A stretch of DNA of 64,000 nt, from assembly GCF_900078705.1 (NCBI RefSeq), contig NZ_FKIF01000007.1:248001-312000 (forward strand), given 5' to 3'. Made by a program: the position numbers and the translations under genes. The notes below the pieces were generated by a model. The model was not told where the DNA came from, searched no databases, and saw only the letters and a program-made list of their open reading frames with translations. This document shows positions 31,996 through 43,815 of the stretch, piece by piece; the first letter of the stretch is position 1, and every line of letters begins with the position of its first letter. Source of the DNA: Bordetella ansorpii (GTDB lineage Bacteria > Pseudomonadota > Gammaproteobacteria > Burkholderiales > Burkholderiaceae_B).

Positions 31996-33519
31996 ATGGC
32001 TGCTGTTATCAACACCAACTACTTGTCGCTGGTTGCACAAAACAACCTGAACAAGTCCCAGTCGGCGCTGGGTTCCGCCATCGAGCGCCTCTCGTCCGGC
32101 CTGCGCATCAACAGCGCCAAGGACGATGCCGCCGGTCAGGCCATCGCCAACCGCTTCACCGCCAACGTCAAGGGTCTGACCCAAGCCGCCCGCAATGCCA
32201 ACGACGGCATCTCGCTGGCCCAGACGACCGAAGGCGCCCTGAACGAAATCAACAACAACCTGCAGCGCGTTCGCGAGCTGACCAACCAGGCCGCCAACGG
32301 CACGAACTCGGATTCGGACCTGGAATCGATCCAGGCTGAAATCACCCAGCGCCTGGACGAAATCACCCGCGTGTCGGAACAGACCCAGTTCAACGGCGTC
32401 AAGGTTCTGGCCAGCGACTCGAAGATCAAGATCCAGGTCGGCGCCAACGACGACGAAACGATCACGATCGACCTGAAGCAGATCAACGCCACGACCCTGG
32501 GTCTGGGCAAGCTGGACGTCGGCAACGCGATCAGCAGCAAGGGCTTCCAGAACGTCACCACCATCCAGGCCGGCACCTCGGCCAAGTGGACCGACTTCTC
32601 GTTCGCCACGGAAGGCGGCGGCACGTATCAACTGTACGTCGGTGAAGACAACCAGCTGTACGCTTCGGCCGACGGCTCGGTGTACTACACCGCCACGTAC
32701 GATCCCAGCGCCGGCACCGTCACCGTGGGTGGCATCAGCGCCGCCATCACGACGGCCAACATCAACGCCAATGCCACCGAGTTCGACAACGGCGCTGGCG
32801 TGGTTCAGCTGTCCGTCGCCAAGAGCGCCGCTCTGGAAGAACCGGCCGCCCCGACCGTTGACTCGGTCTTCATGGTGAACGACCCCAGTGGCGCCACCAC
32901 CGCCTACTACGTCCAGTCCGGCTCGACGTACTACAACGCCACGATCGACCTGGATACCGGCAAGGTCAGCGTTGACCTGGCTTCGGCCACCGGCTCCGCC
33001 ACCGCCCTGACTGGCATCGCCACCGCCGGCGTCGAAGTTTCGGCCTCGCAAGTCCTGGCCGAAGCCGCTGCTCCGGCCGTGACCGCCGACCTGTCGGGCG
33101 TGTCGTTCTCGGGCACCAACAGCCTGGTCAAGGATGGCGACAACTACTACGTGAAGAACGTGGCCAACGGCGAAACGACGTACTACGCCGCCACCGTGAA
33201 CGCCACCACGGGTGCCGTGTCGGCGACCGCCGGCAACGAAGTCCTGGTCGACCCGCTGGCTTCGATCGACAAGGCCCTGGCCTCCGTCGACTCGCTGCGT
33301 AGCGACCTGGGCGCGATCCAGAACCGTTTCGAATCGACCATCACGAACCTGAACAACACGGTGAACAACCTGTCCGCCGCCCGTTCGCGTATCGAAGATG
33401 CCGACTACGCCACGGAAGTGTCGAACATGACCAAGGCCCAGATCCTGCAACAGGCTGGCACCTCGGTTCTGGCCCAGGCCAACCAAGTTCCCCAGACCGT
33501 TCTGTCGCTGCTGCGCTAA
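31996..33519 (+). CDS. fliC: Flagellin FliC (FlaA)
   Basis: This is the filament subunit. The 507-residue product has the conserved N-terminal D0/D1 part (about 1-170: [40 protein letters not shown]) and C-terminal part (about 425-507, ending [12 protein letters not shown]). The middle (about 200-415) is Thr/Ala/Tyr-rich and contains three related Tyr-rich hairpin units at 211-246, 292-328 and 376-411, about 82 residues apart. The start at 31996 is fixed by GGGAG and by the family start [11 protein letters not shown]. It is driven by the sigma-28 promoter at 31882-31908 and ended by a strong terminator. Confidence 0.97.
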
Positions 33520-33565
33520 GCACGGCTACGCGGTGGCCGGCCTCCATGGCCGCCACCGAACGGAC

Positions 33566-33599
33566 AAAAGCCCCTGGCTTCGGCCAGGGGCTTTTTTTT
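33566..33599 (+). terminator. Rho-independent terminator of fliC
   Basis: AAGCCCCTGGC (33568-33578), loop TTCG, GCCAGGGGCTT (33583-33593) and a run of T to 33599 form a textbook intrinsic terminator 48 bp after the fliC stop. It separates flagellin from the glycosyltransferase gene. Confidence 0.93.
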
Positions 33600-33724
33600 G
33601 GCCGCCGTTGGCGCATGAAAGACACGTGCAAGGAAATACGGCCAATTTCCTTGGTTTACCGCGCAATTCGCCGCCCTGCCCGCCCCATACACTGCTGCGA
33701 GAACTCGTTTAGCGTCCTGCTTCC

Positions 33725-36700
33725 ATGAAAAACAAACCCAACCGCCAACAGCTGCTCAAGAGCATTCCGCGAGCACAGGGCGCCATCGTCGCGCTGACCC
33801 TCGAACAGGCGCAGGAACGCACCCGCCGTTCGCCGGACGATGTCCACGCCTGGAAGGAGTTCGCCCGGAACCTGTTGCAGGTCAAGGAGTTCGACGAAGG
33901 CCGTTCGGCCGCACAGCAGGCTTGCGAGTTGGCGCCTCAGGACGCCCATGCACGCGCGCTGTTGGGCATGATCGAATTGCAGGCCGACAACCAGGCCGTG
34001 GCTCGCCAGCATTTCACGCAAGCCCTCGAACTGGACGAGAACTGCGTGCCGGGCCATCAAGGCATGGCGCATGTGCTGATGCACCTGAACGACAACATCG
34101 GGGCGCTGCACCATATCGAAGAATCCCTGAAGCACCGGCCCGAGGATCAATCCGCGCAAGCCACGCGCGCCATCATCCTGACCCGCCGCTTCAAATATGA
34201 AGAGGCCGAGGCCGCGCTGCGCAAGCTGATCGCCGAAGGGCAAAGTACCTTCGGGCAATGGACCAACCTCGGCAACATCAAGCGCGACCTTTGTCTGTTC
34301 GAGCAAGCCGAAGAGTGCTATAGGAAAGCGGTCGAGCTCATGCCCAAGAGCCCGTTCGCGCACTCGAATCTCGTCACGCTGATGCACTACATGCCCACGC
34401 GTACGCGCGAGGACATCCTGGCCGCCTGCAAGAACTGGGGCGCCATCTTCCTGCCCGAGACGCGCCAGGTGCGCCCGGTACCGGACGATCTGTCCCCAGA
34501 CCGCCGCCTGCGCATCGGCCTGTTCTCGGACGGGTTCCGCCAGCATCCGGTGGGCGCCATGACGACCACCGCGCTCGAGCACCTGGACTCGATGGGCGTG
34601 GAACTCTACTGCTACACGACCAGCCCCGTCGTCGATCACCTGACGCAACGCCTGATGAATATCTCGGCGTCGTGGGTATCCACGGCCAAGATGACGGACG
34701 ACCAGTTCACGCAGCGCGTCCGTGACGACAAGATCGACATCCTGATCGACCTGGCCGGCCACAATGCGGGTACGCGCATGCGCTCGATGGCCATGGAGCC
34801 CGCGCCGCTGCTGGTGAAATGGGTCGGTGGCCTGATCAACACGACGGGCGTCGACTTCATCGACTATCTGATCACCGACAGCATCGAAAGCCCCCCCGAC
34901 AGCGACGGCTTCTATACCGAGAAGCTGATCCGCATGCCGGACGACTACATCTGCTACGTGCCGCCCCCCAAAGTGCCCGCGGTGGGCCCGTTGCCGGCGC
35001 TGAAGAACGGATACATCACGTTCGGCTGCTTCAACAACCCGACCAAGATCAACGACGTGCTGTTGACGGAATGGGCGCGCCTGATGATGCAGGTGCCCGA
35101 TTCGCGGCTGCTGCTCAAGAGCGGCCCGTACGAAAGCCCCGACTTGCGCAAGCGTATCGTGGCCATCATGGCCGCCGAAGGCGTGGCCGAAGAGCGCGTG
35201 ATGTTCGAGGGCCAGTCCCTGCATTACGACCTGTTCGGCCGTTACAACGACATCGACGTGGCGCTGGATCCCTGGCCCTATTCCGGCGGTTTGACCACCT
35301 GCGAAGCCATGCTGATGGGCGTGCCCGTCGTCAGCCTGCCAGGCCCGACGTTCGCCGGCCGGCACTCGGCCACGCACCTGGTCAACGCCGGCATGGCCGA
35401 ACTGGTGGCCCAGGACTGGGACCAGTACCGTGCCCGTGCGCTGGAACTGGTGTCCGACCTGCAGGCGCTGGCCACCATCCGCAGCCACCTGCGCCAGATC
35501 CTGCTCGAATCCCCCATCTGCGACGGCAAGAAATTCGCCGGCCACCTGGGCGACGCCCTGCGGGCGATCTGGCAACGATACTGCGCCGGCCGCAAGCCCG
35601 CCGCGCTGGCCTTCACGCCCGACGGCCAGCCCTGGTTCGAGGACGACGACGCGCCGACCGTGGTGTCTCATCCCAAGGCGCAGACAGCGCAAGAGGACAC
35701 GCAGTTCAGTTTCGCTTTCCAAGGACGCATCGTGACGCTGGACCATGGGGCCTCCATGGTGCGCGGCTGGAAGTACAAGGACCTGGCGCGCACCAAGACG
35801 CTGTCGATGATTGTCATCGACCCGGCCAGCAACACCCAGGATGCGGACAAGCTTCTGCATGACGGCCGCATCCAGCACTATCACACCGAATTCGCCCTGG
35901 GCGACGGGCAGCCCCGGACGCTGAACGCCTGCCTGGAAGCCTCGTTCTCCGGCACGCTGAATCTGCTGCCCCTCGATCAACAGCCCCCCTATTCGCGCGC
36001 AGGCGCCAACGTGCTGGCCCGGTTGCCCGTGCAGACGGTCAGGCTGGACGCCATCGAAGGCCTGGAACGGATCGACTGGCTGATCCTGGACGACAGGCAT
36101 GACAGCCTGGCGATCCTGCGCGGCGCCGAAGGGCTGATGCCGGACATGCTGCTGGTGCATGCACGCGTCATGTTCATGCAGATCTACCAGGATCAGCCCG
36201 ACCTGTCCTCGCTCATCGCCCAGATGGCGCGGTACGGCATGCGCCTGCTGCGTCTGGACGGCCTGCACCACCACAGCTCGCTGCCAGCCGAGACTCCGCT
36301 GAAACAGCCCTTCGGCGGCTCGCAACTGGTGCATGCCAACGCGTTGTTCGTGCCGGATGAGGCGCGCCTCGCTACCCTGGAACCGAACCAACTGCGCAAG
36401 CTGGCCTTCCTGCTGCACACGGTCTATCACGCCTCGGATCTGGCGTTCAATCTGCTGGCGCGCCTCGACGAGCCGTCGGCGACGCGATTCCTGCGCGCCA
36501 ACGGCTTGCTGCGCGACGAAGAGCCGGAGGCCTCGACGCTCGACCTGCGCAACCGCATCGAGGTGCCCGCCATCCTGCTGGCCGAGCCCCCGCGCAAGGC
36601 CTGCGTCGGCGTTCCGGTCTATAACGAAGAGAAGTACATCGAGCACACGATCCGCAGCCTGCTCGCGCAGGACGCGGACGATGTCGGCTTCCTGATCTCG

Positions 36701-37399
36701 GACAACGCCTCGACCGACCGCACGCTCGAGATCGTCCAGGATCTGACCGGCGGCGATTCACGCTTCAAGCTGCATCGGCATGACCAGAACAAGGGCTCCA
36801 TGACGAACTTCACGTTCGCTTTCATGGCCGCCCAGTCCGAGTACTTCATGTGGCTGGGCGGCCACGATTACCTGTCGCCCGACTATGTGTCGAACGCCAT
36901 CAAGCGGCTGGACGAGAACGACAAGTTGTCCATGGTGTTCGGACGCCCCTATTCGGTCCATGAAGGCACCATCGAGCGGGAAATGCCCGCCGCCATCTAC
37001 GAGTTCAATAGCGACAAGCCCGCGCAACGCTACCTCGACTCCGTGGTCAAGCTCGCCAACTGCACCATCATCCACTCGATGTTCCGGCGCGCGCACCTGC
37101 AGGATTGCGACATGCGCCAGACCATGTCGTGCGACCACGTCCTGATCAGCCACCTGCTGTGGAAGGGGCACCTCGAGTACATGAACAACGGTCCCAAGTA
37201 CTTCCGGCGCTTCTTCAAGCAGCGCGCGGAGTCGGCGGCCGAACGCATCACCGGAAAGAAAGAGGCCCTGCCCGCATCCGGCCTCTATCGCTACTACCGC
37301 GACGACATCGCGACGCTGGCCCGCAGTCACATGCCTCCGGCTTCGATCGCGTCTTTCCAACACACCGTTCAGCAGGTCCTGGCAAAGCGGTTTCGCTGA
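33725..37399 (+). CDS. Multi-domain glycosyltransferase (TPR / OGT-like / FkbM-like / GT2), probably acting on flagellin
   Basis: The product has 1224 residues. Residues 38-205 are TPR repeats. Residues 260-620 resemble the O-GlcNAc transferase (SPINDLY, GT41) catalytic region, with DFIDYLITD (377-385), ITFGCFNNPTKI (431-442) and DPWPYSGGLTTCEAMLMGVP (515-534). Residues 665-850 resemble FkbM-type methyltransferases (VRLDAIEGLERIDWLILDD, then AILRGAEGL), possibly degenerate. Residues 957-1150 are a GT2 glycosyltransferase (VGVPVYNEEKYIEHTIRSLL, ISDNASTDRTLEIVQ, MWLGGHDYLSPDYV). It lies 205 bp after fliC and before nucleotide-sugar genes, so O-glycosylation of flagellin is the likely role; the substrate is inferred. 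It ends with its own terminator. Confidence 0.85.
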   Translation: MKNKPNRQQLLKSIPRAQGAIVALTLEQAQERTRRSPDDVHAWKEFARNLLQVKEFDEGRSAAQQACELAPQDAHARALLGMIELQADNQAVARQHFTQALELDENCVPGHQGMAHVLMHLNDNIGALHHIEESLKHRPEDQSAQATRAIILTRRFKYEEAEAALRKLIAEGQSTFGQWTNLGNIKRDLCLFEQAEECYRKAVELMPKSPFAHSNLVTLMHYMPTRTREDILAACKNWGAIFLPETRQVRPVPDDLSPDRRLRIGLFSDGFRQHPVGAMTTTALEHLDSMGVELYCYTTSPVVDHLTQRLMNISASWVSTAKMTDDQFTQRVRDDKIDILIDLAGHNAGTRMRSMAMEPAPLLVKWVGGLINTTGVDFIDYLITDSIESPPDSDGFYTEKLIRMPDDYICYVPPPKVPAVGPLPALKNGYITFGCFNNPTKINDVLLTEWARLMMQVPDSRLLLKSGPYESPDLRKRIVAIMAAEGVAEERVMFEGQSLHYDLFGRYNDIDVALDPWPYSGGLTTCEAMLMGVPVVSLPGPTFAGRHSATHLVNAGMAELVAQDWDQYRARALELVSDLQALATIRSHLRQILLESPICDGKKFAGHLGDALRAIWQRYCAGRKPAALAFTPDGQPWFEDDDAPTVVSHPKAQTAQEDTQFSFAFQGRIVTLDHGASMVRGWKYKDLARTKTLSMIVIDPASNTQDADKLLHDGRIQHYHTEFALGDGQPRTLNACLEASFSGTLNLLPLDQQPPYSRAGANVLARLPVQTVRLDAIEGLERIDWLILDDRHDSLAILRGAEGLMPDMLLVHARVMFMQIYQDQPDLSSLIAQMARYGMRLLRLDGLHHHSSLPAETPLKQPFGGSQLVHANALFVPDEARLATLEPNQLRKLAFLLHTVYHASDLAFNLLARLDEPSATRFLRANGLLRDEEPEASTLDLRNRIEVPAILLAEPPRKACVGVPVYNEEKYIEHTIRSLLAQDADDVGFLISDNASTDRTLEIVQDLTGGDSRFKLHRHDQNKGSMTNFTFAFMAAQSEYFMWLGGHDYLSPDYVSNAIKRLDENDKLSMVFGRPYSVHEGTIEREMPAAIYEFNSDKPAQRYLDSVVKLANCTIIHSMFRRAHLQDCDMRQTMSCDHVLISHLLWKGHLEYMNNGPKYFRRFFKQRAESAAERITGKKEALPASGLYRYYRDDIATLARSHMPPASIASFQHTVQQVLAKRFR

Positions 37400-37449: not shown

Positions 37450-38220
37450 ATGAAAGCGGTGATTCTTGCCGGGGGCTACGGCACCCGGATCTCCGAAGAG
37501 TCGTATCTCAAGCCCAAGCCCATGATCGAGATCGGCGGCAAGCCGATTCTCTGGCATATCATGAAGACGTACTCGCATCACGGGATCAACGATTTCGTGA
37601 TCTGCTGCGGGTACAAGGGGTACGTCATCAAGGAGTACTTCGCCAACTATTTCCTGCACATGTCCGACGTCACGTTCGACATGAGCCGCAACGCCATGGA
37701 AGTGCATCACCGCTATGCCGAGCCGTGGCGCGTGACGCTGGTGAACACCGGCGAGGATACCCTGACCGGCGGCCGCCTGAAGCGCGTGCGCGACCACCTG
37801 GACGATGAGCCCTTCTGCTTCACCTATGGCGACGGTGTCAGCGACATCGACATCCGCTCGCTGGTCGATTTCCACCTGAAGCATGGCAAGCCGGCGACCG
37901 TGACGGCCATCCAGCCGCCCGGCCGATACGGCGCCCTGGACATCGAGAACGACGCCGTCATGAGCTTCCGCGAGAAGCCCGCCGGCGACGGCGCCTGGAT
38001 CAACGGCGGCTATTTCGTACTGAATCCCTCCGTGCTGGATTACATCGAGGGCGATCAGACCAGCTTCGAGAACGAGCCGCTCATGCGGCTGGCCGCCGAG
38101 CATCAACTGATGGTGCACCGCCATAGCGGTTTCTGGCAGGCCATGGACACCTTGCGCGACAAGAACCACCTCGAACAGCTCTGGTCGCAAGGCAATCCCC
38201 CCTGGAGAAAGTGGGAGTGA
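37450..38220 (+). CDS. rfbF: Glucose-1-phosphate cytidylyltransferase
   Basis: The enzyme makes CDP-glucose from CTP and glucose-1-phosphate, the first step of CDP-deoxysugar pathways. The 256-residue product has the nucleotidyltransferase start MKAVILAGGYGTRISEESYL, KPKPMIEIGGKPILWHIMK and the subfamily-specific FVICCGYKGYVIKEYFANYF. The sugar-binding part FTYGDGVSDID and INGGYFVLNP follow. The length is that of RfbF/DdhA. It overlaps the next gene (stop inside the rfbG start region), opening a tightly coupled set. Confidence 0.95.
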   Translation: MKAVILAGGYGTRISEESYLKPKPMIEIGGKPILWHIMKTYSHHGINDFVICCGYKGYVIKEYFANYFLHMSDVTFDMSRNAMEVHHRYAEPWRVTLVNTGEDTLTGGRLKRVRDHLDDEPFCFTYGDGVSDIDIRSLVDFHLKHGKPATVTAIQPPGRYGALDIENDAVMSFREKPAGDGAWINGGYFVLNPSVLDYIEGDQTSFENEPLMRLAAEHQLMVHRHSGFWQAMDTLRDKNHLEQLWSQGNPPWRKWE

Positions 38221-39275
38221 GCCCGTTCGGCGATATCTACCGCGGCCGGCGCGTCCTGGTGACGGGGCACACCGGTTTCAAGGGTAGCTGGCTGTCGTTG
38301 TGGCTGACGCGCCTGGGCGCCCAGGTGACGGGCATCGCCCTGCCCCCGGATGCGCGGCCCGCCCTGTTCGACGAACTGCGCCTGTCGCACGACATGGATA
38401 GCCGGCTGTGCGATATCCGCGATAGGGACGCCCTGGCCGCGATCGTCCGGGAAGCCCAGCCCGAGATCGTGCTGCACCTGGCGGCGCAGCCGCTGGTCCG
38501 GGCCAGCTACCGGGTGCCCGTCGAAACGTTCTCGACCAATGTGATGGGCACGGTGCACTTGCTGGACGCCGTGCGCCACGTGGACAGCGTCCGCGCCGTC
38601 GTGGCCGTCACGACCGACAAGGTCTACCGCAACCAGGAATGGCACTATCCGTACCGCGAGACGGACGCCCTGGGCGGACATGATCCCTACAGCGCCAGCA
38701 AGGCGGCCTGCGAGCTGGCGATCGCCTGCTATCGCGACGCCTTTCTGGCGGCCCAAGGCCTGGCTGTCGCCAGCGCGCGCGCCGGCAACGTGATCGGCGG
38801 CGGCGACTGGTCCGAGGACCGGCTGCTGCCCGACGCCATACGCGCCTGGCAGAGCGGCCAGCCCCTCGACATACGCCGTCCCGATGCCGTGCGTCCGTGG
38901 CAACACGTACTGGAGCCCCTGGCGGGCTATCTGCGACTTGCCCAGGAACTGTGGCAGCGCCCGGCCAGCGCCGGTGCGTACAACTTCGGCCCGGACGTGT
39001 CGGATGCCGCGCCGGTCAGGCATGTCGTGGAGCTGGCCCGCGCCGCCTACGGCAGCGGCGAGGTCCATTTTGGCACCGACAACGCCGGCCCCCATGAGGC
39101 GGGCCTGCTGAACCTCGACACCTCGCACAGCCGTGCCGTGCTGGGCCTGGCGCCCCGCTGGACCCTGGCCGAATCCGTGTCGCGCACGATGCATTGGTAT
39201 CGCGCATTCGATTCGGGCACGAACGCCCGCCTGTTGTGTGAGGCCGACCTGAACGCCTACGAGGCGGCGGCATGA
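38217..39275 (+). CDS. rfbG: CDP-glucose 4,6-dehydratase
   Basis: The enzyme converts CDP-glucose to CDP-4-keto-6-deoxyglucose. The product has about 352 residues and is an extended SDR fold with NAD site VTGHTGFKGSWLSLWL, catalytic TTDKVY and YSASK, and the family signature ARAGNVIGGGDWSEDRLLPD. I prefer the GTG at 38217, which overlaps the rfbF stop and has GGAG 9 bases upstream. A GTG at 38211 in the same frame is too close to that site. No rfbH (3-dehydrase) follows, so 3,6-dideoxy sugars are unlikely. Confidence 0.94.
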   Translation: MSPFGDIYRGRRVLVTGHTGFKGSWLSLWLTRLGAQVTGIALPPDARPALFDELRLSHDMDSRLCDIRDRDALAAIVREAQPEIVLHLAAQPLVRASYRVPVETFSTNVMGTVHLLDAVRHVDSVRAVVAVTTDKVYRNQEWHYPYRETDALGGHDPYSASKAACELAIACYRDAFLAAQGLAVASARAGNVIGGGDWSEDRLLPDAIRAWQSGQPLDIRRPDAVRPWQHVLEPLAGYLRLAQELWQRPASAGAYNFGPDVSDAAPVRHVVELARAAYGSGEVHFGTDNAGPHEAGLLNLDTSHSRAVLGLAPRWTLAESVSRTMHWYRAFDSGTNARLLCEADLNAYEAAA

Positions 39276-39829
39276 GCTTCACCGTCGATCCGACGCCGCT
39301 GGACGGACTGATGCTGATAAGGCGCAAGCGTATCGGCGATACGCGGGGCTTCTTCGCCCGCCTGTTCAGCCCGACCGAACTGCATGCTTGCGGGTGGCAG
39401 GGTTCCGTGGCGCAAGTCAATCACAGCTACACCTCGCGCCGGGGTTCGGTGCGCGGCATGCATTTCCAGCATCACCCGGATGCGGACGCCAAGCTCGTCC
39501 AGTGCATCCGCGGCGAGGTCTGGGACGTCGCGGTCGACCTGCGGCGCGGCTCCCCGACGTTTCTGCAGTGGCATGCCGAACGCCTGTCGGCCGAGAACGG
39601 ACACGGCCTGTTCATTCCCGCGGGTTTCGCGCACGGGTTCCAGACGCTGACGGACGACGTGGAACTGATCTACTGCCACACCGCGCCCTACGTGCCCTCG
39701 TCCGAGGGCGGACTGCATCACCAGGATGAGCGGCTGGGCATCGCCTGGCCCGAACCCGTGACGGAAGTGTCCGACCGCGACCGCCGCCACGGGTTCATCG
39801 ACTCCGAATTCCAAGGATTGGAACCATGA
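39272..39829 (+). CDS. NDP-4-keto-6-deoxyhexose 3/5-epimerase (RmlC family)
   Basis: The 185-residue cupin is related to dTDP-4-dehydrorhamnose 3,5-epimerase, with DTRGFFARLF, SRRGSVRGMHFQ, KLVQCIRGEVWDVAVDLRRG and IPAGFAHGFQTL; the catalytic His residues of RmlC are present. Next to CDP-glucose genes the substrate is probably CDP-4-keto-6-deoxyglucose rather than a dTDP sugar (inference). The ATG overlaps the rfbG stop by 4 bases. Confidence 0.88.
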   Translation: MSFTVDPTPLDGLMLIRRKRIGDTRGFFARLFSPTELHACGWQGSVAQVNHSYTSRRGSVRGMHFQHHPDADAKLVQCIRGEVWDVAVDLRRGSPTFLQWHAERLSAENGHGLFIPAGFAHGFQTLTDDVELIYCHTAPYVPSSEGGLHHQDERLGIAWPEPVTEVSDRDRRHGFIDSEFQGLEP

Positions 39830-41055
39830 AGTGCCGCCATTGCAGCGCGGAACTGCGCTTGCCCTTTCTGGATCTGGGCAACGCCCCGCCATCCAATGCC
39901 TACCTGAAACCCGGCGACCTGAACCGCCCGGAAGTCTGGTTTCCGCTACGCCTGCTGGTCTGCGAAAGCTGCTGGCTGGTCCAGACCGAGGACTACGCGG
40001 GCCGCGAGGCGCTGTTCACCGAAGAATATGCCTACTTCAGTTCCTTCTCGCGCTCCTGGCTGGAGCACGCGCGGCGCTACGTCACCGACAGCATCGCGCG
40101 CTTCGGGCTGGGCGTCGACAGCAGGGTGGTCGAGATCGCCGCCAATGACGGCTATCTGCTGCAATACGTGAAGGACGCGGGCGTACCCTGCTACGGCATC
40201 GAGCCGACGGCCAGCACGGCCGCCGCCGCCCGCAAGCTCGGCCTGGACATCATCGAACAGTTCTTCGGCGTGGAGCTGGGCCAGGCGCTGGCGGAACAAG
40301 GCCGCGCGGCCGACCTGATGGCGGCCAACAACGTGCTGGCGCACGTCCCCGACATCAATGATTTCGTGGGCGGCTTCCGCTGCCTGCTCAAGCCGAGCGG
40401 CGTCGCGACGTTCGAGTTCCCGCACCTGCTGCGCATGGCCGCCGAGCACCAGTTCGACACGGCTTACCATGAGCACTACTCGTACCTGTCGCTGACCGCG
40501 GTGCACGCCATCTTCGCCGCCAACGGCCTGCAGGTATTCGACGTCCAGGAACTGCCCACGCACGGCGGCAGCCTGCGCGTGTATGCGCAACGCGCCGACA
40601 CCGGCACGCATGCCGTGTCGGCCGGCGTAGCCGGCATGCTGGAACAAGAGGACGCCGCCGGCATCCGCACCCAGGCCTATTACCAGCGCTTCCAGGCCCA
40701 CGCGAACCAGGCCAAGAACGGCTTGCTGTCGTTCCTGCTCACGGCCCGCGCCGAGGGCAAGCGGGTGGGCGCATACGGCGCGGCCGCCAAGGGCAATACC
40801 CTGCTGAACTATGCCGGCGTGCGCCCGGACCTGCTGCCTTACGTCGTGGACCGCAATCCCGCCAAGCAGGGCCAGCACCTGCCGGGCAGCCATATCCCGA
40901 TCGTCGACGAAGAGGTGTTGCGGCAGGATCGGCCGCACTACATCCTGGTCCTGCCCTGGAACCTGAAGGCCGAGATCGGCGAGCAACTGGCGTATGCCCG
41001 CCAGCAGTGGGGCGCGCAGTTCGTCACGGCCATCCCTTCCCTGGCCATCAACTGA
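39826..41055 (+). CDS. Sugar C-methyltransferase (TylC3/TcaB9 type)
   Basis: The 409-residue product has three parts: an N-terminal zinc site (Cys3, Cys6, Cys46, Cys49); a SAM-binding domain (VVEIAANDGYLLQYVKDAG, then GIEPTAST); and a C-terminal Methyltransf_14-type domain (GAYGAAAKGNTLLNYAG). The active-site segment YHEHYSYLSLTAVH is the hallmark of enzymes that add a methyl to carbon 3 of 4-keto-deoxysugars. It overlaps the epimerase gene by 4 bases. With rfbFG upstream the likely product is a branched CDP-3-C-methyl-6-deoxyhexose (inference). Confidence 0.88.
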   Translation: MKCRHCSAELRLPFLDLGNAPPSNAYLKPGDLNRPEVWFPLRLLVCESCWLVQTEDYAGREALFTEEYAYFSSFSRSWLEHARRYVTDSIARFGLGVDSRVVEIAANDGYLLQYVKDAGVPCYGIEPTASTAAAARKLGLDIIEQFFGVELGQALAEQGRAADLMAANNVLAHVPDINDFVGGFRCLLKPSGVATFEFPHLLRMAAEHQFDTAYHEHYSYLSLTAVHAIFAANGLQVFDVQELPTHGGSLRVYAQRADTGTHAVSAGVAGMLEQEDAAGIRTQAYYQRFQAHANQAKNGLLSFLLTARAEGKRVGAYGAAAKGNTLLNYAGVRPDLLPYVVDRNPAKQGQHLPGSHIPIVDEEVLRQDRPHYILVLPWNLKAEIGEQLAYARQQWGAQFVTAIPSLAIN

Positions 41056-41086: not shown

Positions 41087-41947
41087 ATGAGCGACGCCCA
41101 CGCCCTCCCGTCCGCCGCGCCGCGCCAGGTCATCGTCAGCGGCGCGACCGGCTTCATCGGCCAGTACGTCGTGCCCTTGCTGTTGCAGCGGGGCCATCGG
41201 GTCGTCGCCCTCGGGCGTGACAAGAACAAGGCGGCGCGCATGCCCTGGCATGCCCAGGTCGACTTCCATTGCGTGGACCTGCGCAGCCAGTCGTTCGGCT
41301 TCACGCCGCAGCCGGATGCCGGGTTGATACACCTGGCCTGGTCCGGCCTGCCGGACTACCGCTCGCTGTCCCACATCGAGGACAACCTGCCCGCCAGTTG
41401 CGGCTTGATACGCAAGCTGGTGGAGTCGGGCGTCAGCACCGTGCTGGTCACCGGCACCTGCCAGGAATACGGCATGCAGGACGGCCCCCTGGATGCCAGG
41501 ACGCCCACCCGGCCCACCACGCCGTACGCCATCGCCAAGGACACGCTGCGCCAGTACCTGCAATGCCTGCAAGGCAGCACCGGGTTCTCGCTGCAATGGG
41601 CGCGGCTGTTCTACATGTACGGCGCGGGCCAGAATCCGCGCTCGATCCTGGCGCAGCTCGACCAGGCCATCGCCAACGGCGACGCCGTCTTCCGCATGAG
41701 TGGCGGAGAACAGCTGCGCGATTACCTGCCCGTGCAGGAAGTCGCGCGCCGCATCGTGGATCGTTTCGACAGTGGCCTGGACGGCCCCGTGAACATCTGC
41801 AGCGGCAAACCCATCTCCATCAGGCGACTGGTGGAGGAACGTATCGAACACGTCGGCTCCGACATACGGATTGAACTGGGGTACTACCCCTACCCGGACT
41901 ATGAGCCCATGGCCTTCTGGGGCAAAAACGAGGATCAACAACCATGA
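41087..41947 (+). CDS. NAD(P)-dependent sugar epimerase/reductase (extended SDR)
   Basis: The 286-residue product has the Rossmann start VIVSGATGFIGQYVVPLLL, a Thr-rich active segment (VLVTGTCQEYG) and catalytic Tyr and Lys in TPYAIAKDTLRQY. The family includes 4-ketoreductases that finish deoxysugar synthesis, which fits its place after the C-methyltransferase. The ATG at 41087 follows that gene by 31 bp. Exact stereochemistry cannot be read from sequence. Confidence 0.85.
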   Translation: MSDAHALPSAAPRQVIVSGATGFIGQYVVPLLLQRGHRVVALGRDKNKAARMPWHAQVDFHCVDLRSQSFGFTPQPDAGLIHLAWSGLPDYRSLSHIEDNLPASCGLIRKLVESGVSTVLVTGTCQEYGMQDGPLDARTPTRPTTPYAIAKDTLRQYLQCLQGSTGFSLQWARLFYMYGAGQNPRSILAQLDQAIANGDAVFRMSGGEQLRDYLPVQEVARRIVDRFDSGLDGPVNICSGKPISIRRLVEERIEHVGSDIRIELGYYPYPDYEPMAFWGKNEDQQP

Positions 41948-42726
41948 GCGAACACGAAAAATTCAAAGCGGAATGCGCGGAAGAAGTGCGCGGCCAGGGC
42001 GCCGACGCGGAACTGCGCGCGCTGACCAACCAATGGATCTCCAAGGCGGCCGAGCACAAGTACTCGTATCACTTCGAATGGCTGGGCCGGCCCGTCATCC
42101 AGCATCCGCAGGACATGGTGGGCGTGCAGCAGTTGCTGTGGGCGGTGCAGCCGGACCTGATCATCGAGACCGGCATCGCGCGTGGCGGTTCGCTGATTTT
42201 CTATGCAAGCATTCTTGAATTGATCGCGCAGTGCGGCGGCAATCCGGACGCCAGGATCCTGGGGGTCGACATCGACATCCGGGCTCACAATCGCGAGGCC
42301 ATCCTGGCCCATCCGATGGCACGCCGTATCGAGATGATCCAGGGCTCCAGCATCGCCCAGGAAACCTTCGAGCAGGTGCGGCGCGCCGCCGCCGGCAAGA
42401 AGAAGATCCTGATCTGCCTGGACAGTAACCACACGCACGACCACGTCCTGGAAGAACTGAAGCTGTACGCGCCCCTGACCAGCCCGGACAGCTACTGCAT
42501 CGTGTTCGACACCATTGTCGAGGACCTGCCCGAGGACGTCGGCCCGCCCCGCCCCTGGAGCAAGGGCAACAACCCCAAGACCGCGGTCTGGGAGTACCTG
42601 AAGCTGCTGCAGGAACAGGACGTGCAGGCGGCCGATGGCCAGCGCCTGGCCCTGGAGATCGACCAGCAGATCGAGGACACGCTGCTGATCACCGTGGCGC
42701 CCAGCGGCTTCCTGCGCCGGGTCTGA
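41944..42726 (+). CDS. CmcI-family SAM-dependent methyltransferase (sugar O-methyltransferase-like)
   Basis: The 260-residue product belongs to the cephalosporin hydroxylase/CmcI family, which includes rhamnosyl O-methyltransferases. Seen: DLIIETGIARGGSLIFYAS, ILGVDIDIRAHNREAI, ILICLDSNHTHDHVLEEL and DTIVEDLPED. Despite the family name most members are methyltransferases. The ATG overlaps the preceding stop by 4 bases. It may O-methylate the sugar or glycan made by this cluster (inference). Confidence 0.82.
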   Translation: MSEHEKFKAECAEEVRGQGADAELRALTNQWISKAAEHKYSYHFEWLGRPVIQHPQDMVGVQQLLWAVQPDLIIETGIARGGSLIFYASILELIAQCGGNPDARILGVDIDIRAHNREAILAHPMARRIEMIQGSSIAQETFEQVRRAAAGKKKILICLDSNHTHDHVLEELKLYAPLTSPDSYCIVFDTIVEDLPEDVGPPRPWSKGNNPKTAVWEYLKLLQEQDVQAADGQRLALEIDQQIEDTLLITVAPSGFLRRV

Positions 42727-42729
42727 AGC

Positions 42730-43815
42730 ATGCCGAACGTGCTGGAAGTCCCGACCCTTCCCAACCGGCCGCTGCTTCGAGCCGACGAACCCGAAGTGAT
42801 CGGCCGCATGCAGCTACGCCGCAACGTGGCGCTCGATTTCGTCGAGAATGCGGCGTTCTTGGCGGATCTCGCGGTGTATGACCAGGACTACCAGAACAGC
42901 CAGGCGCATTCCCCCCTGTTCCTGGCCCACATGCAGAACGTGCTGGCCCTGCTGAAGGCGCGCTTTCCGCGCGGCAGCAAGCTCGTGGAAGTGGGATGCG
43001 GGAAAGGCGATTTCGTCGAGCTCGCGCTTGCCGACGGGCATTTCGATGCCAGCGGCTATGACGCGACCTACGAGGGCGCCAACCCGCGCATCGAGAAACG
43101 CTACCTGGGCCCGGACGACCGCATACAGGCCGACGTCATCGTCCTGCGCCACGTGCTGGAACACATCCCCGCCCCGCATCGCTTCCTGGCGATGCTGCGA
43201 GACATATTCAAGACCGGCCACGTCTACATCGAAGTGCCCAGCCACGAATGGATCCTGACCCATCAGGCCTTCTTCGACATCACGTACGAACACGTCAACT
43301 ATTTCACGCGCACGGCCTTGACCGGCCTGTTCGGCTCGACGGCCTCCACGCACGGACTGCTGTTCGGCGATCAATACCAGTACGTGCTGGCCGACATTTC
43401 CACGGTTTCCCAGGACTACGGCAGCCGTTACGACGACGCGTCGCAATGGCAGACGCTGGATTTCGACAGCCTGTTCCCCAGCCTGTCCTCGCGCATCGCC
43501 GAACTGGACGAGATGATCGCGGCGCCCGCCCGCCTTTACCTCTGGGGCGCCGCCACCAAGGGCTGCATGTTCCTGATGCATTGCCGCAACCAGCAACGGC
43601 TGCTGGACAAGATGGCTTACGTGGTGGACATCAATCCCGGCAAATGCGGCAAGTTCCTGCCCGGGTCCCGCATTCCGATCCAGGCCCCAGAAGCCCTGTA
43701 TGCCGATGCCCGCGAAGGCGACGTGCTGGTGATCGCCAATCCGAACTACCAGCAGGAAATTGCCGCCACCCTGCAAGCCCACGGGCTGTCGGGCCTGAAG
43801 ATCACCTGCCTGTAA
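42730..43815 (+). CDS. SAM-dependent methyltransferase related to sugar C-methyltransferases
   Basis: The 361-residue product has a SAM site (KLVEVGCGKGDFVELALADG), a segment FDITYEHVNYFTRTAL equivalent to the YHEHYSYLS active region of the gene at 39826-41055, and a C-terminal Methyltransf_14-like domain (LYLWGAATKGCMFLMH, VVDINPGKCGKFLPGS). It lacks the N-terminal zinc-binding cysteines of its relative. The start lies 3 bp after the previous stop; a later Met is possible. Substrate unknown; probably the same glycan. Confidence 0.82.
   Translation: MPNVLEVPTLPNRPLLRADEPEVIGRMQLRRNVALDFVENAAFLADLAVYDQDYQNSQAHSPLFLAHMQNVLALLKARFPRGSKLVEVGCGKGDFVELALADGHFDASGYDATYEGANPRIEKRYLGPDDRIQADVIVLRHVLEHIPAPHRFLAMLRDIFKTGHVYIEVPSHEWILTHQAFFDITYEHVNYFTRTALTGLFGSTASTHGLLFGDQYQYVLADISTVSQDYGSRYDDASQWQTLDFDSLFPSLSSRIAELDEMIAAPARLYLWGAATKGCMFLMHCRNQQRLLDKMAYVVDINPGKCGKFLPGSRIPIQAPEALYADAREGDVLVIANPNYQQEIAATLQAHGLSGLKITCL

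Follow-up and report, generated by a model that had tools for sequence, protein, structure and literature searches.

Could a single polypeptide carry out two successive sugar transfers to flagellin, and what would supply the second sugar? The question is raised by a gene directly behind fliC in the window, by which we mean the whole stretch of 64,000 nucleotides of Bordetella ansorpii DNA that was analysed. An earlier note on this DNA had read the 1224-residue product as a fusion of TPR repeats, an OGT/SPINDLY-like catalytic region, an FkbM-like region and a GT2 glycosyltransferase, and had proposed that it attaches a sugar to flagellin and then extends or caps it. The features of the flagellin gene and the enzyme gene are as follows.

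31996..33519, + strand: fliC, flagellin, 507 aa, the presumed acceptor (Flagellin_N and Flagellin_C)
33725..37399, + strand: putative flagellin glycosyltransferase, 1224 aa, TPR - GT41 - FkbM-fold - GT2
33845..34348, + strand: TPR repeats, residues 41-208 (Pfam TPR families), presumed to dock flagellin by analogy with FlmG
34415..35644, + strand: GT41 catalytic region, residues 231-640 (PF13844; SPINDLY alignment)
35645..36514, + strand: FkbM-fold domain, about residues 641-930, a probable pseudo-methyltransferase
36515..36601, + strand: linker, about residues 931-959 (of low confidence at 932-945 in a model of residues 25-1224)
36602..37396, + strand: GT2 tail of the window type, residues 960-1224 (PF00535; alignment of 8 tails)

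The frame at 33725..37399 was confirmed as intact and single-copy: it is one open frame of 1224 codons, and no second full copy of the gene was found in its genome. Two separate genes or a frameshift artefact were rejected, since there is no inner stop and relatives show the same domain order. The genome has no flagellin match other than the adjoining fliC. Allowing up to two mismatches, no sigma-28-like site was found near the enzyme gene (four matches lie elsewhere in the window), and there was no sigma-70-like site in 33400-33800.

The enzyme was compared with 91 related loci; the TPR, GT41 and FkbM-fold parts together are here called the chassis. The set comprises 20 of 21 long chassis loci from the window's family (G097, L024 left out) and the best 80 of 232 named loci, mostly from Gammaproteobacteria with some from Balneolota, minus nine duplicates. 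A match to the middle domain lies behind GT41 in 86 of the 91 loci. In 83 of the 91 fliC is found within 700 bp of the chassis gene, upstream on the same strand in 78 (77 by a stricter count) and in another orientation or on the other side in five; eight have no fliC in reach, some of these at contig ends. A chance neighbourhood with fliC was rejected on these counts. The region behind the chassis varies. Tail classes were assigned by similarity of at least 40 bits to our own reference modules in psiblast or blastp, and the 92 proteins (window included) were distributed as follows.

small methyltransferase-like: 35
nothing, or fewer than 60 residues: 16
FkbM: 7
window-type GT2 alone: 6
sulfotransferase: 6
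unclassified: 5
GT56: 3
another GT2: 3
GT2 plus GT56: 3
another GT2 plus window-type GT2: 2
FkbM plus sulfotransferase: 2
single cases: 4

Pfam confirmed the GT2, GT56 and FkbM modules in tails, and the sulfotransferase in all three tails tried. The methyltransferase-like class leans on a single PDB match (3cvo, E 1.9e-15), because Pfam gave no match on three such tails. The comparison shows that TPR, GT41 and the FkbM-fold domain form a conserved chassis, mostly beside fliC, and that the part behind it is exchangeable.

The domain assignments of the earlier note were borne out. TPR families of Pfam matched within residues 41-208. PF13844 scored 149.8 bits in the enzyme against a curated cut-off of 25, and a search of PDB sequences gave SPINDLY as the top match (residues 117-627, E about 1e-92), followed by the bacterial entry 5djs and OGT entries. 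H274 and K441, which from the SPINDLY alignment we take to correspond to the catalytic residues of SPINDLY and OGT, are present in 91 and 92 of the 92 chassis proteins respectively. The GT2 tail scored 93.1 bits with PF00535 against a cut-off of 23.3. It lacks the classic DXD; in the window-type tails GGHD or an AHD/GHD-type motif stands there, with H and D invariant in 8/8. The sequence-level outcome that the earlier note named as telling against its reading, domain searches without a GT41 or GT2 relation, did not arise. The predicted model of residues 25-1224 had a pTM of 0.64, with the second half of GT2 poorly modelled (few alignment rows there).

The middle domain matched the FkbM methyltransferase of PDB 2py6, so that the FkbM-like call held at the level of fold. 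The earlier note had guessed that this part is non-catalytic, and the alignment supports the guess. The SAM loop DxGxxxG was found in none of 87 aligned middle-domain sequences, and the KIDxxGxE-type segment is replaced, although both are retained where FkbM modules occur as tails, in L038, L113 and L122. As DxGxxxG is missing throughout, the domain is probably a pseudo-methyltransferase. If it were instead an active methyltransferase, the protein would carry out three reactions. Consistent with this, D699 is invariant and D673 nearly so in the 87 rows, both at the place of SAM-binding acids, and DxG is kept in 74 of the 87; yet the loop and the segment that the tail modules retain are lost here, and no match to PF05050 or any other Pfam methyltransferase family was obtained with the window protein up to E 0.1. 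One relative, L040, does match PF05050 (23.9 bits, cut-off 22.7). An active methyltransferase in the middle was therefore rejected as very improbable. It would be unusual for a methyltransferase that has degenerated to be kept in place between two glycosyltransferases.

A candidate source of a second sugar lies directly downstream, where seven genes are closely packed, overlapping slightly or separated by short gaps, the first starting 50 bp behind the enzyme gene.

37450..38220, + strand: RfbF-type glucose-1-phosphate cytidylyltransferase (TIGR02623, 466.4 bits, cut-off 300.25)
38211..39275, + strand: RfbG-type CDP-glucose 4,6-dehydratase (TIGR02622, 483.6 bits, cut-off 278.45)
39272..39829, + strand: RmlC-type 3,5-epimerase (TIGR01221, 167.5 bits, cut-off 155.75; PDB RmlC 1dzr, E 1.8e-38)
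39826..41055, + strand: sugar 3-C-methyltransferase, CMT (PF08421/PF08484; D-mycarose 3-C-methyltransferase 4rv9, E 6.7e-71)
41087..41947, + strand: SDR-fold epimerase/reductase, presumed 4-ketoreductase (PF01370; PDB MoeE5, E 5e-19)
41944..42726, + strand: RMNT/CmcI-family enzyme, presumed sugar O-methyltransferase (PF04989, 275.2 bits, cut-off 23.2; CmcI 2bm8, E 7.6e-7)
42730..43815, + strand: additional methyltransferase whose C-terminal domain is of the C-methyltransferase type (PF13489 and PF08484)

RfbG has no close counterpart elsewhere in the genome, the remaining five matches being at most 33% identical. The cassette reads as a pathway to a CDP-3-C-methyl-6-deoxyhexose with O-methylation. 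Glucose would undergo cytidylylation, 4,6-dehydration, 3,5-epimerisation, 3-C-methylation, 4-reduction and O-methylation to give a CDP-6-deoxy-3-C-methyl-O-methyl-L-hexose. Such a compound is the CDP-vinelose of Azotobacter vinelandii, which we take to carry 6-deoxy-3-C-methyl-2-O-methyl-L-talose, and the enzyme set expected for the Azotobacter pathway matches the window cassette. The cytidylyltransferase, 4,6-dehydratase, 3,5-epimerase and sugar 3-C-methyltransferase are present together; the SDR protein and the RMNT/CmcI-family protein are candidates for the 4-ketoreductase and the 2-O-methyltransferase, with stereochemistry and position presumed. As judged from its genes, the cassette would thus fit CDP-vinelose synthesis. 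The same four-part gene lies beside fliC, together with the cassette, both in A. vinelandii (L128) and in A. chroococcum (L093). In A. vinelandii the only CMT match in the genome is that of the cassette, which carries further genes compared with the window.

Across the relatives, cassette and tail occur together. Both rfbF and rfbG adjoin 7/7 relatives with the window-type GT2 tail and only 2/84 without it (Fisher p 4e-9, a value that ignores kinship), the two being L044, with another GT2 tail, and L133, with no tail. CMT adjoins six of the seven (not L048), against 0/84. Cassettes may be missed, since at least 12 of the loci without rfbF have less than 6 kb downstream. On a quick GT41 tree, in which 37 of 89 inner branches are starred, the tail needs 8 changes for 8 bearers; in a table of groups from this tree it needs 6, compared with a shuffled mean of 6.6, so that its distribution resembles that of a randomly assigned label. 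The starred branches gave five independent pairs; the cassette accompanied the tail in a mean of 4.8 of them and the opposite was never seen, where a sign test with five pairs reaches 0.0625 at best. Among the 8 bearers, distances were set against each other in 15 comparisons that covered GT41, the middle domain, the tail, rfbF, rfbG and rmlC; most showed no correlation, and uncorrected values were p 0.038 for GT2-rfbG and p 0.006 for rfbG-rmlC. Some of the pairing between tail and cassette could reflect joint transfer of adjacent DNA.

Domains similar to the window-type GT2 also occur outside the chassis. A search of 369 genomes of the class (E 1e-45) returned only the window's own match. Two relatives of the domain, L196 with 294 aa and L197, whose 711 aa include a second GT2, are free of the chassis and both adjoin the cassette, and neither has a GT41 match in the fetched stretch. 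Flagellin genes lie within the same stretch as L197; L196 has the cassette and several GT2 genes, with no flagellin match in 19 kb.

The cassette itself is found in other company. Of 268 genomes of the family, 31 had a CMT match, and 26 of these were examined (all except G082, G104, G634, G648 and G653). The window-type GT2 was fused to the chassis in four (window included) and a similar domain lay outside the chassis in two (G029, G195); another type of GT41 was present in 19, and neither was found in one (G088, L251). In 19 of the 20 further loci, that is, the cassette adjoins a different protein, with GT41 at its C-terminus behind TPR repeats; fliC was seen in 18 of the 19, and no window-type GT2 was found in any of them. 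Since these loci pair the cassette with the other GT41, the cassette does not need the window-type GT2. PF10119 was found at the N-terminus of 7/7 such proteins scanned, four of which have a clear methyltransferase domain, and the one compared with the PDB matched there 5doo and 5dnk, protein lysine methyltransferases of the Rickettsia type. When the open reading frames of four of these loci were read by eye, no other glycosyltransferase was seen in the stretches shown. The other GT41 may itself use the CDP sugar there.

These loci bear on the choice between two ways of using the cassette. The GT41 of the window might transfer the CDP-linked methylated sugar to Ser/Thr, with GT2 adding a different sugar on top or acting elsewhere, as the 19 loci with the other GT41, and the four of them in which no further glycosyltransferase was seen, would suggest. 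The two GT41 types differ in the pocket, however: K441, T525 and H547 occur in all 92 window-type proteins, and at these places the other type has R, L and I/L/V in 19/19. Among window-type chassis, moreover, the cassette follows the GT2 tail and not GT41, and L196 and L197 combine the cassette with a GT2 of this kind and no GT41 match. No GT41 column was found to track the tail; the largest difference was 0.55, for which 300 naive shuffles gave p 0.26. The 79 residues that mark the other type occur just as seldom in proteins with the tail as in those lacking it (0.031 each), A234 being the one clear exception (0.62 with the tail, 0.12 without). The absence of such a column, and the equal rarity of these residues, suggest that the window GT41 may retain its own donor, and use of the CDP sugar by it appears unlikely to us. 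We consider it quite improbable that the protein modifies flagellin while the cassette supplies another glycan, such as one of the cell surface polysaccharides, by way of a glycosyltransferase encoded elsewhere in the genome. Further GT2 genes are indeed present in the genome, and the cassette at L196 lies among several GT2 genes without a flagellin match; against this, tail and cassette are paired across relatives and the cassette begins immediately behind the enzyme gene.

We conclude that the protein is probably a cytoplasmic two-step flagellin glycan synthase, in which GT41 adds a first sugar and GT2 caps it with a CDP-derived sugar. This is favoured by the above-cut-off matches of both transferases, the retained H274 and K441 and the invariant H and D; by the proximity of fliC in 83/91 loci and the 7/7 versus 2/84 association of tail with rfbF and rfbG; and by the position of L196 and L197 beside the cassette, among whose seven genes Pfam found no glycosyltransferase. 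It is weakened by the 19 cassettes with the other GT41, by the exceptions L133, L044 and L048, by the mostly uncorrelated distances and by a GT2 without the classic DXD. Attachment followed by extension or capping is still the preferred reading, strengthened by the association of this GT2 type with the cassette. In detail, the TPR part would dock flagellin, GT41 would place the first sugar on Ser/Thr, the FkbM-fold domain would serve as a non-catalytic spacer or docking piece, and the linker-tethered GT2 would cap the first sugar with a 3-C-methyl-6-deoxyhexose, probably also O-methylated, from the CDP-linked donor made by the genes downstream.

Parts of this scheme have precedents. FlmG of Caulobacter crescentus is soluble, modifies flagellins before export and has a TPR part that binds flagellin in a two-hybrid assay; like the window enzyme it joins TPR to a GT-B transferase and is linked to flagellin, but it has 596 residues, a single transferase with pseudaminic acid as donor, and neither FkbM-fold part nor tail (PMC7591256). 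By analogy, the first half of the window enzyme may work like FlmG, through TPR docking and GT-B transfer. In enterobacterial flagellin glycosylation islands, SPINDLY-type GT41 proteins, nearly all with a methyltransferase domain, lie beside flagellin genes, and GT2 and GT41 are described as mutually exclusive within an island, whereas here they are fused (PMC4875605). Fgi-1 of Aeromonas, also a GT2, is cytoplasmic and extends the flagellin glycan from its first sugar, but as a separate protein of 313-327 residues, unfused to the first-step enzyme (PMC7874193); the GT2 tail may work in the same way. SPINDLY and OGT (PDB 7y4i, 8dtf, 5djs, 7ntf) share with the window enzyme the TPR-GT41 order, sequence and catalytic positions, but are single transferases with plant or animal substrates. 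FkbM methyltransferases (PDB 2py6, PF05050) have the fold of the middle domain and differ from it in the SAM loop and KIDxxGxE-type segment, which it has lost.

GT41 with methyltransferase domains beside flagellin, TPR-linked transferases such as FlmG and an extending GT2 have thus been reported before. A literature search covering titles and abstract starts, mostly of papers outside subscription, returned no GT41-GT2 fusion and no 3-C-methyl sugar on flagellin, and we found no account of tails that are exchanged, of tails paired with a cassette or of the degenerate middle domain. CDP-vinelose was described in the 1960s, and to our knowledge no acceptor has been assigned to it. Tentatively, and a little short of an even chance in our estimate, the family may be a modular synthase, in which a fixed chassis gains exchangeable modules together with donor cassettes, the module here and in Azotobacter vinelandii being a CDP-vinelose transferase. 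If so, flagellin would be the acceptor of CDP-vinelose. With the chassis constant, the tail would indicate the addition made to the first sugar and the adjacent genes would indicate its donor, so that part of the flagellin glycan could be read from sequence.

Between fliC and the enzyme gene, a terminator-like stem with a T run is present at 33576-33600. No sigma-28-like site was found ahead of the enzyme gene when up to two mismatches were allowed, and no sigma-70-like site was found there within 33400-33800.

The FkbM-fold middle domain also occurs in proteins of 968-1275 residues adjoining fliC at three comparison loci (L198, L199 and L200); in comparison with the window protein, none of these gave a GT41 match.

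The tails that follow the chassis differ. Sulfotransferase tails on chassis of the window type were found at eight loci (L101, L142, L145, L150, L104, L155, L122 and L140), with Pfam confirmation for only the first three. Tails of GT56, the Fuc4NAc transferase family, are carried by the proteins of L038, L041, L047, L049, L050, L151 and L153. RmlA-like and DegT-like genes lie near those of L038 and L041, which would fit a dTDP-amino-sugar donor; no such genes were found downstream of the L047, L049 and L050 proteins within the stretch.

CDP-sugar genes accompany two further arrangements:

L232:10806-14327, example of a second flagellin-linked GT41 fusion
L044:4884-12049, GT2 tail of another type, with rfbF and rfbG

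Proteins of the second fusion (L232-L250) have an N-terminal protein-lysine-methyltransferase-like domain, then TPR and a C-terminal GT41, and are accompanied by a CDP-sugar cassette of the window type. One chain could possibly both methylate and glycosylate flagellin. At L044, rmlC and CMT are absent despite the presence of rfbF and rfbG, and the following gene resembles RfbH of 3,6-dideoxyhexose pathways. A distinct tail may therefore be paired with a distinct CDP sugar.
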